This document shows, in pieces, positions 6,960-16,865 of a stretch of 28,988 nt of DNA (position 1 is the stretch's first letter; each line of letters starts with the position of its first letter). The stretch is from a virus. The position numbers were made by a program, and so were the translations under genes. The stretch lies in IMG/VR virus record IMGVR_UViG_3300011113_000411, positions 1-28,988 of that record, one strand, 5' to 3'. Below the pieces are notes generated by a model, which had not been told where the DNA came from, made no database searches, and saw only the letters and a program-made list of their open reading frames with translations.

Positions 6960-8558
6960 ATGCGTTACGGATCCGTTTGCAGCGGCATTGAGGCCGCGAC
7001 AGCCGCTTGGCACCACATGGCTTGGGAACCCGCCTTCTTTTCGGAGATCGAGGCGTTCCCCTGCGCGGTGCTGTCACACCACTATCCTGAAGTTCCGCTG
7101 CACGGCGACTTCACGACCATTGAGAAGAACCAATATGGCAAAATCGACCTCCTCGTTGGCGGCACACCTTGCCAATCCTTCAGTGTCGCCGGTCTCCGAG
7201 GTGGATTGGATGATCAGCGTGGTAACCTCGCCCTTGAGTTTTGCCGACTTGCTCAGCGTGAGCAACCTCGCTGGATTGTCTGGGAAAATGTCCCCGGCGT
7301 CCTGTCATCGGGAGGAGGACGGGACTTTGGTTCCATCCTCGGGGCGCTGGAAGACCTCGGGTATGGCCTCGCCTACCGAGTGCTTGACGCTCAGTACTTC
7401 GGAGTGGCCCAGCGACGCCGCCGTGTGTTTGTTGTCGGATACCTTGGAGACTGGCGTCCTGCCGCAGCGGTTCTTTTTGAGCGGCACAGCATGTCAGGGC
7501 ATCCTGCGCCGAGCCGAGAAGCGCGGAAAGACGCTGCCCGAGCAATTGCATCGGGCGTTGAAGAGCGTGGTGGCTGCGGAGGGGATGGATCTTCTGTAGA
7601 CTGGCCCGCAGACGTAGCCTGCACACTGGACACTGACTTCGCCAGCAAGTGGGGTCAGAACAACCAGCACGTCAACGCCGGCTGCCCGCTTGCCGCAGGC
7701 GCACACGCGCCAGCGATAGCATTTGCCCAGAACACACGCGATGAGGTGCGTCTGGTCGGCGGCGATGGTGAGATCGCAGGGGCGCTCGCCGCGCAGCCGG
7801 GCATGAAGCAGACGACCTATATCGCGTATGACCATCCCGGCCGGTTCAACAACATCCACGGCGGGTCAGGCGAGCACCGCGAGATCATGCCAACGCTTGA
7901 GGCCACGAACCCGAAACAGATCATCGCCTTCAGCAGCAATATGTCAGTCCCTGATTGTCAGACGGACGGCACTACGCCGACCCTGAAGCTGGGCGGCCAC
8001 GGTGGCGGTAATCCGCCAGCGGTGGTCTACCCGATCAACACCCAGATGGCGCTGCGCGGTGCAGATACGTCAAACACAAGCAGGGAAGGCGTGGGCATCG
8101 GTGGCGAAAGCGACCCCGCTTTCACGCTGCAAGCTGGCCACTGCCATGCGGTGGCTTTTGGAGAAACGGCCCGCACTTTGTCAGCGCGGCATGACGGCAG
8201 CCCATGCGTCGACCGCGGGCCTGATGTGGTAGCTGTGGCGTTTGGCCTTGCCACACCCGTCACACCAAAGTGGTGGGAAGAACTGTCCCCGACACTGACG
8301 CAGCCCAGCCCAACTGGGGGCGGCCAGCCTGCAGCCGTGGCCATAACATCAGCCGTCCGCCGCCTGACCCCCGTGGAGTGCGAACGGCTTCAGGGCTTCC
8401 CCGACAACTTCACCGCCATCCCGTGGCGCAAGAAGGGCGCAGAGGACTGCCCAGACGGCCCGCGCTACAAGGCGCTGGGCAACAGCATGGCTGTGCCGGT
8501 GATGCGCTGGATCGGTGAGCGCATCCAAGTTGTTGACGACCTGATTTCAGTCTTGTGA
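6960..8558 (+). CDS. DNA (cytosine-C5) methyltransferase with repeat-rich middle region
   Basis: 532 residues; transfers a methyl group from S-adenosylmethionine to cytosine C5 in DNA. Motif I is GSVCSGIEAATAAW (4-17), motif IV holds the catalytic Cys71 in GGTPCQSFS, motif VI is ENVPG (109-113), motif VIII QRRRR (151-155), and motifs IX-X lie at 465-515 (LTPVECERLQGFPDNF, then ALGNSMAVPV). Residues 215-465 hold about six repeats of the form (A/P/S)-T-L...(P)A-h-A-F, probably the target-recognition part. No restriction enzyme lies beside it, so protection from host restriction or gene control is more likely than a restriction-modification pair. Over residues about 59-213 the third codon positions are unusually poor in G/C, matching a nested gene in the +1 frame. 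Confidence 0.93.
   Translation: MRYGSVCSGIEAATAAWHHMAWEPAFFSEIEAFPCAVLSHHYPEVPLHGDFTTIEKNQYGKIDLLVGGTPCQSFSVAGLRGGLDDQRGNLALEFCRLAQREQPRWIVWENVPGVLSSGGGRDFGSILGALEDLGYGLAYRVLDAQYFGVAQRRRRVFVVGYLGDWRPAAAVLFERHSMSGHPAPSREARKDAARAIASGVEERGGCGGDGSSVDWPADVACTLDTDFASKWGQNNQHVNAGCPLAAGAHAPAIAFAQNTRDEVRLVGGDGEIAGALAAQPGMKQTTYIAYDHPGRFNNIHGGSGEHREIMPTLEATNPKQIIAFSSNMSVPDCQTDGTTPTLKLGGHGGGNPPAVVYPINTQMALRGADTSNTSREGVGIGGESDPAFTLQAGHCHAVAFGETARTLSARHDGSPCVDRGPDVVAVAFGLATPVTPKWWEELSPTLTQPSPTGGGQPAAVAITSAVRRLTPVECERLQGFPDNFTAIPWRKKGAEDCPDGPRYKALGNSMAVPVMRWIGERIQVVDDLISVL
7135..7599 (+). CDS. Candidate nested gene in the +1 frame of the methyltransferase
   Basis: 154 residues from ATG 7135 (frame open back to TTG 6988), read one base out of step with the methyltransferase. 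The methyltransferase loses its normal C/G-ending codon preference across this span and regains it after 7599, the stop of this frame, while codons here end mostly in G or C. The product is Ser/Thr-rich early (SFADLLSVSNLAGLSGK) and ends in LSDTLETGVLPQRFFLS and ACQGILRRAEKRGKTLPEQL. From memory, that ending recurs in phage proteins of unknown function, but I could not check this. The ribosome site (GAGAAG) is weak. Function unknown. Confidence 0.6.
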   Translation: MAKSTSSLAAHLANPSVSPVSEVDWMISVVTSPLSFADLLSVSNLAGLSGKMSPASCHREEDGTLVPSSGRWKTSGMASPTECLTLSTSEWPSDAAVCLLSDTLETGVLPQRFFLSGTACQGILRRAEKRGKTLPEQLHRALKSVVAAEGMDLL

Positions 8559-13979: not shown

Positions 13980-16865
13980 ATGAGCACACTGTACCTCGAT
14001 CTCGAAACATTCTGCGAAACGAAGATCACCTACGGCGCGTACCGCTATGCGGAGGACGCCGAGGTGATGCTGGTGGCGTGGGCGTGTGACGACGAGCCCG
14101 TAACCGTCTGGGACACGCAGGACATGCCGCACTGGCGTGACGCGCTGCAGAACATCATCGACAAGGCCGATCGCGTTGTGATCCACAACAGCAACTTCGA
14201 CCGCACCGTCCTGCGCGAGCAGGGCGTCCACATCCCCGTGGAGAAAATTATCGACACGATGGTGCTGGCCCTGCAGCACAGCCTGCCCGGATCTCTGGGC
14301 CAGCTCTGCGACGTGCTGAACGTGCCGCAGGACAAAGCCAAAGACACGGCGGGCAAAAAGCTGATACACTTGCTGACGAAGCCGAGGCCCAGCAACGTAA
14401 AAATACGGAGAGCCACCCGTGACACACACCCCGCCGAGTGGGCCGCCTTCGTCGAGTACGCCCGGCTGGATGTGGACGCAATGCGAGACGTACTTGGACG
14501 ACTGCCATCATGGAACGATAGTGATCGTGAGCGGCTCTTGTGGCAGTGTGATCAAAGAATTAATGACCGTGGTGTCGCCGTTGACCGAGAGTTTGCACGA
14601 GCAGCTATACGAGCTTTCGATCGAGCTGGACGATCTCTGGCCGCTCGTGCAGCCCATCTGACGGGCGGCAGCGTCACGTCCGCCACGCAGCGCCAGCGCC
14701 TGCTCGACCACCTCAAGGATGCCCACGGCTTCGAGACCGAAGATCTGACGCGCGGCACGCTCGGCACCCTGCTCGCCGGCGACCTCAATCCGCAGGTGCG
14801 CGAGCTGCTGGAGATACGGCAGCAGGCGGCCGCGACGAGCCCGGCCAAGTACGGTGTGCTGATCAACGCCACGAACCGGGACGGCCGCCTGCGCGGCCTG
14901 ATCCAGTTCTGCGGCGCGTCGCGCACTGGGCGTGACGCCGGCCGGCTGTTCCAGCCGCAGAACCTGCCGCGATCGCCCGACTGGTTCGACGGCGACGTGC
15001 AGGCGACGACCGTGGCCGCCATGAAGGCGGACTGCGAGCACCTGATCTGGGACAACGTCAGCGAGCGCTGCGCGTTTGCCGTGCGCGGGGCGCTGGTTGC
15101 CCCCGAGGGCACCAAGCTGGTCATCGCCGACCTGTCCAACATCGAGGGGCGCGTCTTGGCGTGGTTAGCCGGCGAGGACTGGAAGGTCACCGCGTTCAAG
15201 GCCTACGACCGGGGCGAGGGGCACGACCTGTACAAGGTCACCGCCGGCCGCATTCTCGGCAAAGATCCGGGCGTCATCACCAAGGCCGAGCGGCAGCTTC
15301 AAGGGAAAATCCCTGAGCTTTCTGGGGGTTACCAAGGGGGCGTCGGCGCGTACCGAGCAATGGGCGGCCCAGTCTTCGACGCCATGACCGACGAGGCCAT
15401 TCAAAAGATCGTCTCCGCGTGGCGCAAGGCCCACCCGCGCACGTGCAATTTGTGGTACGACATGGAGGCGGCCGCGCGGTCAGCCATCAACAAACTGGGC
15501 GAGAGCTTCGCCGTGCGCGACCTGATCACATTCGACGTGAAGGCGGACGCGCAGGGCATCGCGTGGCTGCGGATGAAGCTGCCGAGCGGCCGCTACCTGT
15601 GCTACCCGCACCCGGAGGTGTCGGACAGCGCCAGCCTGTCGTACGAGGGCATCAACCAGTTCACGCGCAAGTGGCAGCGCCTCGACACGTACGGCGGCAA
15701 GCTCTGTATCGCGGGCGGTACTCTCGTCCTTACCGATGCTGGCTGGCTTCCGATCGAACAGGTGACCGTAATCCATAAAGTGTGGGACGGCGTAGAGTGG
15801 GTGGGCAACGAGGGGCTTGCCAGAAAAGGTGTTAAGGAGGTAATAAACTTGAATGGCGTTTGGATGACGCCAGACCATGAAGTGCTTACAACGAAAGGCT
15901 GGGTTCGTGCATCACAGAGCGAAGGACTTGAGCGAGCAGACCCTCGGATACCTGACGGTTGTGAAGTACCACGGGAGCAACGGTCGCCGGTCTCTGTGGC
16001 TGCTTCGATGCCGGTGTGGAGCTGCGGTAGTGCTCGCAGCGACGGAAATAGCGAAACAGCAGAAGCGCGGCATTCAGACCTCCTGCGGTTGCATGCGGAA
16101 CAAGACCATATCGGAGAAGCGGACAACTCACGGGATGTCGGGCCACAAAGCGTTCGCGGTGTGGCGCAGCATGATCGACAGGTGCTCACTGCCGACCCAT
16201 CAGGCTTGGGCGCGATACGGAGGGCGTGGAATAACGGTGTGCGATCAGTGGCGGAAATCCTTCAGCGCCTTCTGGGCCGATATGGGATCGACTTACCGCG
16301 AGGGGCTTACGCTGGAGCGGAAGGACAACGCCGCCGGATACTCCCCGGAAAACTGCGTGTGGGCCACGCCGCTGAAGCAGGCGCGGAACAAACGCACGAA
16401 TGTGCATATCAACACGCCGTGGGGGCGGATGACTGTCGCGGAAGCGGCGGATCGCTCAGGTCTGAACAGAACAACGCTGTACTACCGGGTGAACAACGGA
16501 GTGCCGGAACATCGACTTTTCGAGGTGCCCGATACGTCACGGAAGTTTACGATCTGGTAAACTGCGGGCCACGCAGCCGTTTCGTGGTTGCTGGGGAGGA
16601 CGGCAAGACGCTGATCGTCCACAACTGCGAGAATGCCGTGCAGGCGATCGCGCGCGACGTGTTCATGCACGGCATGCTGCGCGCCGAGGAGGAGGGCTAC
16701 AGCGTCTGCATCCGCGTACATGACGAGCTGGTCTGCGAGACGCCGGACGAGCCGGCGTACAGCAGCGACGGGCTGGCGGCGCTCATGGCGACCAACCCGA
16801 GCTGGTCGGCCGGCCTGCCGCTTGCGGCGGCGGGGTTTGAAGCGTACCGTTACCGCAAGGACTGA
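13980..16865 (+). CDS. Family A DNA polymerase with 3'-5' exonuclease, interrupted by an intein
   Basis: 961 residues; 654 after removal of the intein at residues 576-882. Exonuclease motifs: YLDLETF (5-11), IHNSNFDRTVL (64-74) and YARLDVDAM (159-167). Polymerase motif A is VIADLSNIEGRVLAWLAGE (about 381-399), motif B the ERQLQGKIPELSGGY helix, and motif C RVHDELVCE near 911. It is the phage replicative polymerase. ATG 13980 has AGAGG upstream, buried in hairpin 2. The intein sits between GGKL and CENAVQAIARD, a conserved palm region, so activity needs splicing. A nested +1 gene (14419-14661) overlaps the exonuclease part. VRR-NUC and helicase genes follow. Confidence 0.93.
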   Translation: MSTLYLDLETFCETKITYGAYRYAEDAEVMLVAWACDDEPVTVWDTQDMPHWRDALQNIIDKADRVVIHNSNFDRTVLREQGVHIPVEKIIDTMVLALQHSLPGSLGQLCDVLNVPQDKAKDTAGKKLIHLLTKPRPSNVKIRRATRDTHPAEWAAFVEYARLDVDAMRDVLGRLPSWNDSDRERLLWQCDQRINDRGVAVDREFARAAIRAFDRAGRSLAARAAHLTGGSVTSATQRQRLLDHLKDAHGFETEDLTRGTLGTLLAGDLNPQVRELLEIRQQAAATSPAKYGVLINATNRDGRLRGLIQFCGASRTGRDAGRLFQPQNLPRSPDWFDGDVQATTVAAMKADCEHLIWDNVSERCAFAVRGALVAPEGTKLVIADLSNIEGRVLAWLAGEDWKVTAFKAYDRGEGHDLYKVTAGRILGKDPGVITKAERQLQGKIPELSGGYQGGVGAYRAMGGPVFDAMTDEAIQKIVSAWRKAHPRTCNLWYDMEAAARSAINKLGESFAVRDLITFDVKADAQGIAWLRMKLPSGRYLCYPHPEVSDSASLSYEGINQFTRKWQRLDTYGGKLCIAGGTLVLTDAGWLPIEQVTVIHKVWDGVEWVGNEGLARKGVKEVINLNGVWMTPDHEVLTTKGWVRASQSEGLERADPRIPDGCEVPREQRSPVSVAASMPVWSCGSARSDGNSETAEARHSDLLRLHAEQDHIGEADNSRDVGPQSVRGVAQHDRQVLTADPSGLGAIRRAWNNGVRSVAEILQRLLGRYGIDLPRGAYAGAEGQRRRILPGKLRVGHAAEAGAEQTHECAYQHAVGADDCRGSGGSLRSEQNNAVLPGEQRSAGTSTFRGARYVTEVYDLVNCGPRSRFVVAGEDGKTLIVHNCENAVQAIARDVFMHGMLRAEEEGYSVCIRVHDELVCETPDEPAYSSDGLAALMATNPSWSAGLPLAAAGFEAYRYRKD
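14419..14661 (+). CDS. Candidate nested gene in the +1 frame of the polymerase exonuclease domain
   Basis: 80 residues from GTG 14419. Upstream, inside the polymerase gene, stands AGCAACG (14391-14397) then GGAGAG (14407-14412) seven bases before the GTG, the same leader and ribosome-site wording as the early genes; it is built with codons rare for this genome (ATA, AGA). Polymerase codons from about 14468 to 14658 end mostly in A or T, against the strong C/G rule elsewhere, and normal use returns right at this frame's stop. The product has a Ser/Pro start, then CHHGTIVIVSGSCGSVIKEL and an acidic helix (SLHEQLYELSIELDDLWPLV). Not recognised. ATG 14470 is an alternative start. Confidence 0.5.
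   Translation: MTHTPPSGPPSSSTPGWMWTQCETYLDDCHHGTIVIVSGSCGSVIKELMTVVSPLTESLHEQLYELSIELDDLWPLVQPI
15705..16625 (+). mobile_element. Intein in the DNA polymerase (307 residues)
   Basis: Protein-splicing element. Block A begins with Cys1 (CIAGGTLVLTDAGWLPIEQV). Block B is GVWMTPDHEVLT (intein residues 51-62) with Thr55 and His58. Block F is VYDLVNCGPRSRFVVAG (281-297). Block G ends LIVHN, with the catalytic His306-Asn307, and the next extein residue is Cys. All splice-site chemistry is present. Residues between about 65 and 278 show no intein homing domain in this frame; instead the DNA encodes an HNH endonuclease one frame over (15877-16560). The polymerase frame stays open across it, which splicing requires. 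Confidence 0.9.
15877..16560 (+). CDS. HNH homing endonuclease encoded out of frame inside the intein
   Basis: 227 residues from ATG 15877 (GTG 15907 is an alternative start nearer the family's usual beginning), one frame ahead of the polymerase. Residues 16-72 match the N-terminal domain of phage HNH nucleases (LGYLTVVKYHG, C45-x-C47 ... C70-x-C72, likely zinc-binding). The nuclease core spans 85-172: HKAFAVWRSMIDRC, WARYGGRGI, LERKDNAAGYSPENCVWAT. The end, 178-216, is a helix-turn-helix (MTVAEAADRSGLNRTTLYY). It should cut intein-free polymerase genes and so spread the element. Its start overlaps block B and its TAA lies inside block F. Codon third positions here are G/C-rich in this frame. 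Confidence 0.88.
   Translation: MKCLQRKAGFVHHRAKDLSEQTLGYLTVVKYHGSNGRRSLWLLRCRCGAAVVLAATEIAKQQKRGIQTSCGCMRNKTISEKRTTHGMSGHKAFAVWRSMIDRCSLPTHQAWARYGGRGITVCDQWRKSFSAFWADMGSTYREGLTLERKDNAAGYSPENCVWATPLKQARNKRTNVHINTPWGRMTVAEAADRSGLNRTTLYYRVNNGVPEHRLFEVPDTSRKFTIW

Follow-up and report, generated by a model that had tools for sequence, protein, structure and literature searches.

The question raised by this locus is whether the family-A DNA polymerase gene of a set of uncultured phages also encodes a second, small protein in its +1 frame. The window, by which we mean the whole stretch of DNA that was analysed, is a 28,988-base virus record from IMG/VR. According to the list of its ORFs, the polymerase gene occupies positions 13980–16865 and specifies 961 residues, ∼307 of which are an intein. 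The product matched phrog_17 (E 3e-97), DNA_pol_A_exo1 and DNA_pol_A. At the junction between the exonuclease and polymerase domains, an ORF runs in the +1 frame from GTG 14419 to TGA 14661, with the 80 codons plus stop that had been proposed in a sequence-only reading of this DNA. The layout proposed for the start site also stood, with AGCAACG at 14391–14397, nine bases, GGAGAG at 14407–14412 and then the GTG, except that the last spacer, CCACCC, comprises six bases and not seven. The same reading had described the polymerase codons that make this site as rare in the genome. This held for AGA (8 of 397 Arg codons in the window); ATA is merely uncommon (16 of 222 Ile codons). The features considered below are as follows.

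13980–16865, plus strand: phage family-A DNA polymerase, the host gene (3′–5′ exonuclease and polymerase), from the ORF and profile matches
14407–14412, plus strand: GGAGAG, putative Shine-Dalgarno sequence for the nested gene (eight bases between GGAG and GTG), with the AGA codon kept
14419–14661, plus strand: predicted nested gene of 80 aa in the +1 frame, starting with GTG and ending with TGA, from the ORF, its openness in relatives and constraint
14434–14436, plus strand: alternative start position (ATG in class-B relatives; no start codon in the window), from start-site comparison
14470–14658, plus strand: conserved nested-protein core (MWTQCETY...LWPLVQPI), with ATG 14470 as a possible second start, from relatives and alignment
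14488–14660, plus strand: polymerase stretch with third-position G/C loss, from GC3 windows and relatives

Other overlapping frames were observed in the window. The polymerase contains an intein-like insertion of ∼307 aa at 15705–16625 (junctions KL/CIAGG and VHN/CENAV), for which the 80 other polymerases compared, a few of them truncated or incomplete, showed no counterpart. Inside this insertion, an ORF at 15877–16560 in the +1 frame encodes an HNH endonuclease (phrog_374) without closing the polymerase frame. Four of 15 relatives checked (L246, L247, L248 and L250) share this pairing of insertion and HNH frames, and L259 does so in part. The closest report to this out-of-frame HNH is the ShiLan domain, described as neither intein nor intron (PMC11855218). 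In the methyltransferase gene at 6960–8558, an alternative-frame ORF of 90 codons lies at 7327–7599, near a stretch where the GC3 of that gene drops to ∼0.46. Apart from the nested gene itself, it alone among alternative-frame ORFs of ≥60 codons in the 12 main window genes has GGAG 5–9 bases ahead of its start.

To return to the nested ORF, the polymerase had been claimed to lose its third-position G/C bias from about 14468 and to regain it at the nested stop. This was borne out: GC3 was 0.86 before the stretch, 0.35 in codons 165–226 and 0.94 after it, and in windows of 30 codons the fall began at ∼14460–14490 and finished at the nested stop. We then compared relatives, taken as the best 80 of 180 found in viral contigs, whose polymerases were 62–93% identical. 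The dip occurred at the same polymerase codons in 80 of 80 (GC3 0.35–0.56), with flanks of 0.71–0.92 before, where that part was present, and 0.72–0.98 after. Stops in the +1 frame of close relatives would have counted against the gene. The frame was open in the 80 relatives, and its first stop was the homologous one in 76. The stop fell three codons earlier in L045 and 4–8 codons later in L053, L058 and L073; L054 is a partial sequence.

Openness alone is weak evidence: of 35 polymerases lacking the nested gene, at least 8 also had an open +1 frame, and randomization of synonymous codons left ∼45% of sequences open. From the 81 sequences, we selected 42 non-redundant representatives (≥1500 bases, <95% nucleotide identity) and replaced their codons with random synonyms from the same genes in 200 resamplings. 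A +1 stop was present in one of the 42 representatives versus 23.3 expected (range 17–29). Mean pairwise identity of the +1 protein was 0.641 versus 0.459 under the null (0.442–0.481), and GC3 in the stretch was 0.452 versus 0.865 (0.843–0.884). Each of these observed values lay outside all 200 resamplings. The effect was specific to one frame. Among the five alternative frames, only +1 was free of stops in all 42 representatives over codons 165–223; the antisense frames had stops in 27, 41 and 23 of them. The order GC3>GC1>GC2 was found in the +1 frame of 38 of 42 and in the polymerase frame of the same stretch in none of 42.

Because the sequences are related, changes were also counted on a tree that was built from codons outside the stretch. 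Fitch changes at positions 1, 2 and 3 numbered 261, 128 and 275 within the 62 codons of the stretch versus 1381, 1067 and 3484 in the 487 codons outside (p 5e-21), and third-position changes per site were 4.44 inside versus 7.15 outside. The 62-codon windows starting at codons 164–165 were the minimum of the gene in both the third-position rate and its ratio to first positions. Synonymous-site conservation in related polymerases, suggested beforehand as a check, was thereby found where expected, with the fewest third-position changes in the gene at codons 164–225. The ratio of third- to first-position differences was ∼1.0 inside the stretch versus 1.3–2.4 elsewhere. In pairwise dN/dS estimates, which used 293 of 861 pairs, dNN/dNS of the +1 frame was 0.51 versus 0.66–1.03 in non-overlapping windows, indicating moderate constraint; dSN/dSS was 0.59, which is not distinctive (0.49–2.18 elsewhere). 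These comparisons show that selection of moderate strength acts on the predicted +1 protein.

We next consider how the nested frame could be initiated. The representatives fell into two main classes. In class A (21 of 42), the codon at 14419 is GTG or ATG and GGAG or AGGAG lies about eight bases upstream, and the Arg codon of this Shine-Dalgarno sequence is AGA in 20 of 21 versus 1 of 689 Arg codons elsewhere in the same genes. In class B (20 of 42), an ATG at the 14434 position mostly follows GGGAG or GGAG; it is made by a polymerase GAT (17) or AAT (3), with GAT accounting for 134 of 815 Asp codons elsewhere, and the Arg codon of the class-A Shine-Dalgarno sequence is never AGA. Start and Shine-Dalgarno sequence thus shift together between the classes, and comparison shows that the putative start codons are accompanied by a kept Shine-Dalgarno sequence. 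The remaining representative, L051, has the ATG at the 14470 position as its sole start. The proposal of GTG 14419 as the start therefore applies to the window and to half of the representatives, and not to those that start at 14434 or 14470.

The start label changed seven times on the tree, including the gain of the gene, L051 and a label in L180 treated below as chance; about four A/B switches are inferred to remain once these are removed. L016 has a class-B start region within the window's otherwise class-A polymerase group, a pattern suggestive of recombination immediately upstream of the nested gene. The ATG at 14470 was kept in 37 of 42 representatives, where the polymerase Asp codon is GAT, a codon used at 269 of the 1686 Asp positions elsewhere; it could serve as a second start or reflect a Met under constraint. 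This ATG in the +1 frame and the GTG at 14472 in the polymerase frame overlap as AUGUG (14470–14474 in the window), a motif at which initiation in both frames has been reported as possible in E. coli (PMC9841429). The AGCAACG motif had been interpreted as the gene's own copy of a phage leader. The window contains 11 copies versus 5.4 expected (3 of 100 shuffles reached 11), and the pairing with GGAGAG occurs only at the nested-gene site. The motif was present at this site in only 5 of 42 representatives, and we dropped the leader reading because it is not conserved.

To investigate the origin of the gene, we added 33 further viral loci for a tree of 84 polymerases, leaving out the nested stretch. 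The gene was found in 49 of 84, all in one clade with support of 1.0. The labelling rule, which needs WT, marks L073 (WM) as negative although the gene is present and L073 belongs in this clade. With a cruder label (no stop, and W as residue 2), L180 scores positive, which gives two presence/absence changes; we treat L180 as chance because its stretch has a GC3 of 0.90 and no similarity. Nine named phages, among them BPP-1 and Caulobacter RW, have homologous polymerase codons without the GC3 dip and without a similar +1 protein, and eight of the nine have an internal +1 stop, the exception being Jess A. By comparison, the predicted gene is thus in one polymerase clade and absent from its outgroups, and loss was not seen within the sampled clade. 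Against the outgroups, the polymerase frame is conserved within the nested stretch, which indicates that both frames are coding. The simplest and most likely reading is that an existing polymerase gene was overprinted a single time to give the nested gene.

No stand-alone copy was found among the matches examined. In IMG/VR there were 149 pattern matches, and none stood alone in the best 80 of 127 relatives examined; with L169 added, 81 of 81 examined matches to the nested protein lay in the polymerase +1 frame. In GTDB genomes, 463 pattern matches included one relative, on a 4.2 kb contig of a Bacteroidia MAG, and no stand-alone copy. The plasmid records searched with the polymerase yielded 12 records, all of <60% identity.

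The nested product comprises 63–85 aa and is usually acidic (median pI 4.3, median charge −5.4), with those of L051 and L058 near neutral. Set A1 comprised 36 sequences and A2 33 sequences. Residues invariant in 36 members are W19, C22, Y25, G32, G42, L48, T50, L66, E69, L70, L73, W74 and P75. AlphaFold modelled the window protein as a hairpin and a helix with an N-terminal part of low confidence (pLDDT 60), and the core of the L063 protein as three strands and a helix (pLDDT 74). From these models, the product probably folds as β-β-β-α, a prediction of low to moderate confidence. Profile searches of the nested protein in Pfam and PHROGs returned no convincing family, a PDB sequence search nothing convincing (best E 0.72), and tblastn against 50,697 phage records no match. 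Weak matches to phrog_32137, a family of unknown function, were followed up and membership was not confirmed: 13 of 36 members matched at E ≤1 (best E 0.0021), three of five members scanned singly matched at E 0.13–0.33, and none of 37 records matched at E 1.

Fold searches likewise gave no convincing relative. The first model (pLDDT 60) gave best E values of 0.20 in BFVD and 1.5 in the PDB; the second (pLDDT 74) gave 0.086 in the PDB (Rv1738) and a best Z of 5.8 in VIA-align 2. All of these scores are within the range given by common arrangements. Comparable arrangements occur in T7 Gp1.2, a dGTPase inhibitor (Z 4.4, rmsd 2.9, 56 aligned), and SPO1 Acb4, an anti-CBASS protein (Z 4.2, rmsd 3.3, 59 aligned). 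Z values this low are common for unrelated proteins and the PDB search found no sequence similarity; we regard the likeness as an analogy only.

Together, the open frame, the third-position constraint, the frame-specific conservation, and the conserved start and Shine-Dalgarno sequences support the main claim of a +1-frame gene nested in the polymerase. We assign a probability of roughly 0.88 to a real dual-coding gene with independent internal initiation, an estimate that excludes any guess at function and is made without expression data. We infer that the nested protein would be translated from the polymerase mRNA by such initiation, directed in the window by GGAG, 8 bases and GTG 14419. It would be made together with the replication proteins, on the inference that it is expressed with the surrounding replication genes, which encode a primase/helicase, an exonuclease, a Gp2.5-like protein and a helicase.

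What the protein does is a guess. One possibility is that it is host-directed and blocks a host factor while phage DNA is being replicated, a tentative suggestion that we do not hold to be probable. The suggestion draws on how small and acidic the protein is, on its confinement to one clade and on analogy with overprinted proteins of other viruses (PMC8227390); nothing directly supports the role and the function is untested. The product could instead be an accessory of the replisome, binding the polymerase that is translated from the same mRNA. The gene is found only inside this polymerase in the 81 matches examined, its neighbours are replication genes, and the sampled clade shows no loss. 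However, location inside the polymerase gene is a consequence of overprinting and does not demonstrate interaction. Binding is untested, and we consider this role rather unlikely.

The remaining alternatives do without a separate nested product. Ribosomes might shift from the polymerase frame into +1, so that a foreign tail of 62 residues is joined to the exonuclease domain and no separate small protein is made. The conserved core does immediately follow the YARLD stretch in the exonuclease domain, and the onset of the GC3 dip lies downstream of the upstream start codons. However, in most representatives a stop closes the +1 frame a short way upstream (the last stop is at codon index 131–141 in many, and within 60 codons of the start in 37 of 42), which would confine a shift to a short stretch. 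Frameshifting also leaves unexplained why rare codons preserve a start and Shine-Dalgarno sequence at either of two sites, and we judge it very unlikely. Constraint could also act on the nucleic acid, as an RNA structure, a replication or packaging element or a transcription signal, with the open frame as a by-product, since third-position conservation alone does not say which product is constrained. Yet the constraint is frame-specific, starts and stops with the ORF and is accompanied by start signals; the RNA of this stretch in the window does not fold unusually (z 0.40) and no Rfam family matched. This reading is more improbable still. Import of a low-GC3 stretch by recombination from a low-GC phage, without a second gene, would account for GC3 below that of the flanks and is hardly credible, as the dip lies at the same codons in all 80 relatives (62–93% polymerase identity) while flank GC3 varies, and import would neither slow third-position change nor keep the frame open; the +1 frame has the G/C pattern by codon position that a gene shows.

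Apart from translation, which is inferred, the nested gene fits the definition of an embedded gene: the ORF is wholly inside another gene, in another frame, conserved in relatives, under moderately strong selection for its amino-acid sequence and younger than the host frame, as outgroup polymerases lack it. It resembles Rz1 of phage lambda, an o-spanin gene within Rz, in being a small shifted-frame gene wholly inside another tailed-phage gene. Rz1 is a lysis-cassette lipoprotein. Unlike Rz1, the nested protein has by eye no hydrophobic N-terminus, and its gene sits in a replication gene; an Rz1-like o-spanin was rejected on the absence of this signal segment and the location in the replication module rather than a lysis cassette. 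In one annotation guide, embedded genes are called rare in Caudoviricetes, Rz1 in Rz is named as an example, and annotators are advised to record such genes only with extreme caution (PMC8785237).

The ShiLan domain is likewise a second protein out of frame within a phage gene. It is described as an out-of-frame HNH endonuclease insertion, a mobile element of patchy distribution (PMC11855218). Unlike ShiLan, the nested gene coincides with no insertion, the polymerase codons being homologous to those of the outgroups. An inserted mobile element of this type was rejected: the polymerase alignment contained no insertion, and 36 members matched neither HNH nor any other convincing family. Overprinted accessory proteins of eukaryotic viruses are also de novo small proteins in alternative frames of essential genes, and a published table lists many that suppress host responses (PMC8227390). 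These belong to small viruses, whereas the nested gene is in a tailed phage and has no known function. An embedded gene is of a known kind, and we found none reported for a phage family-A polymerase in open-licence papers.

The locus would be a clean case for the study of new-protein birth in an essential gene, of start-site evolution and of the cost to the polymerase, because comparative support is strong, the gain is clear on the tree and the outgroups keep the single-coding state. The fullest picture, which we offer with less than even confidence, is of a protein that arose from scratch in a replicative polymerase, that is old enough for the polymerases around it to have diverged to ∼61% identity, is folded, has not been seen to be lost in the sampled clade, has had its start moved several times between two sites and may be a host-directed inhibitor delivered with the polymerase. 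If the reading is true, embedded genes in the core replication genes of tailed phages would be missed by annotation as a class.
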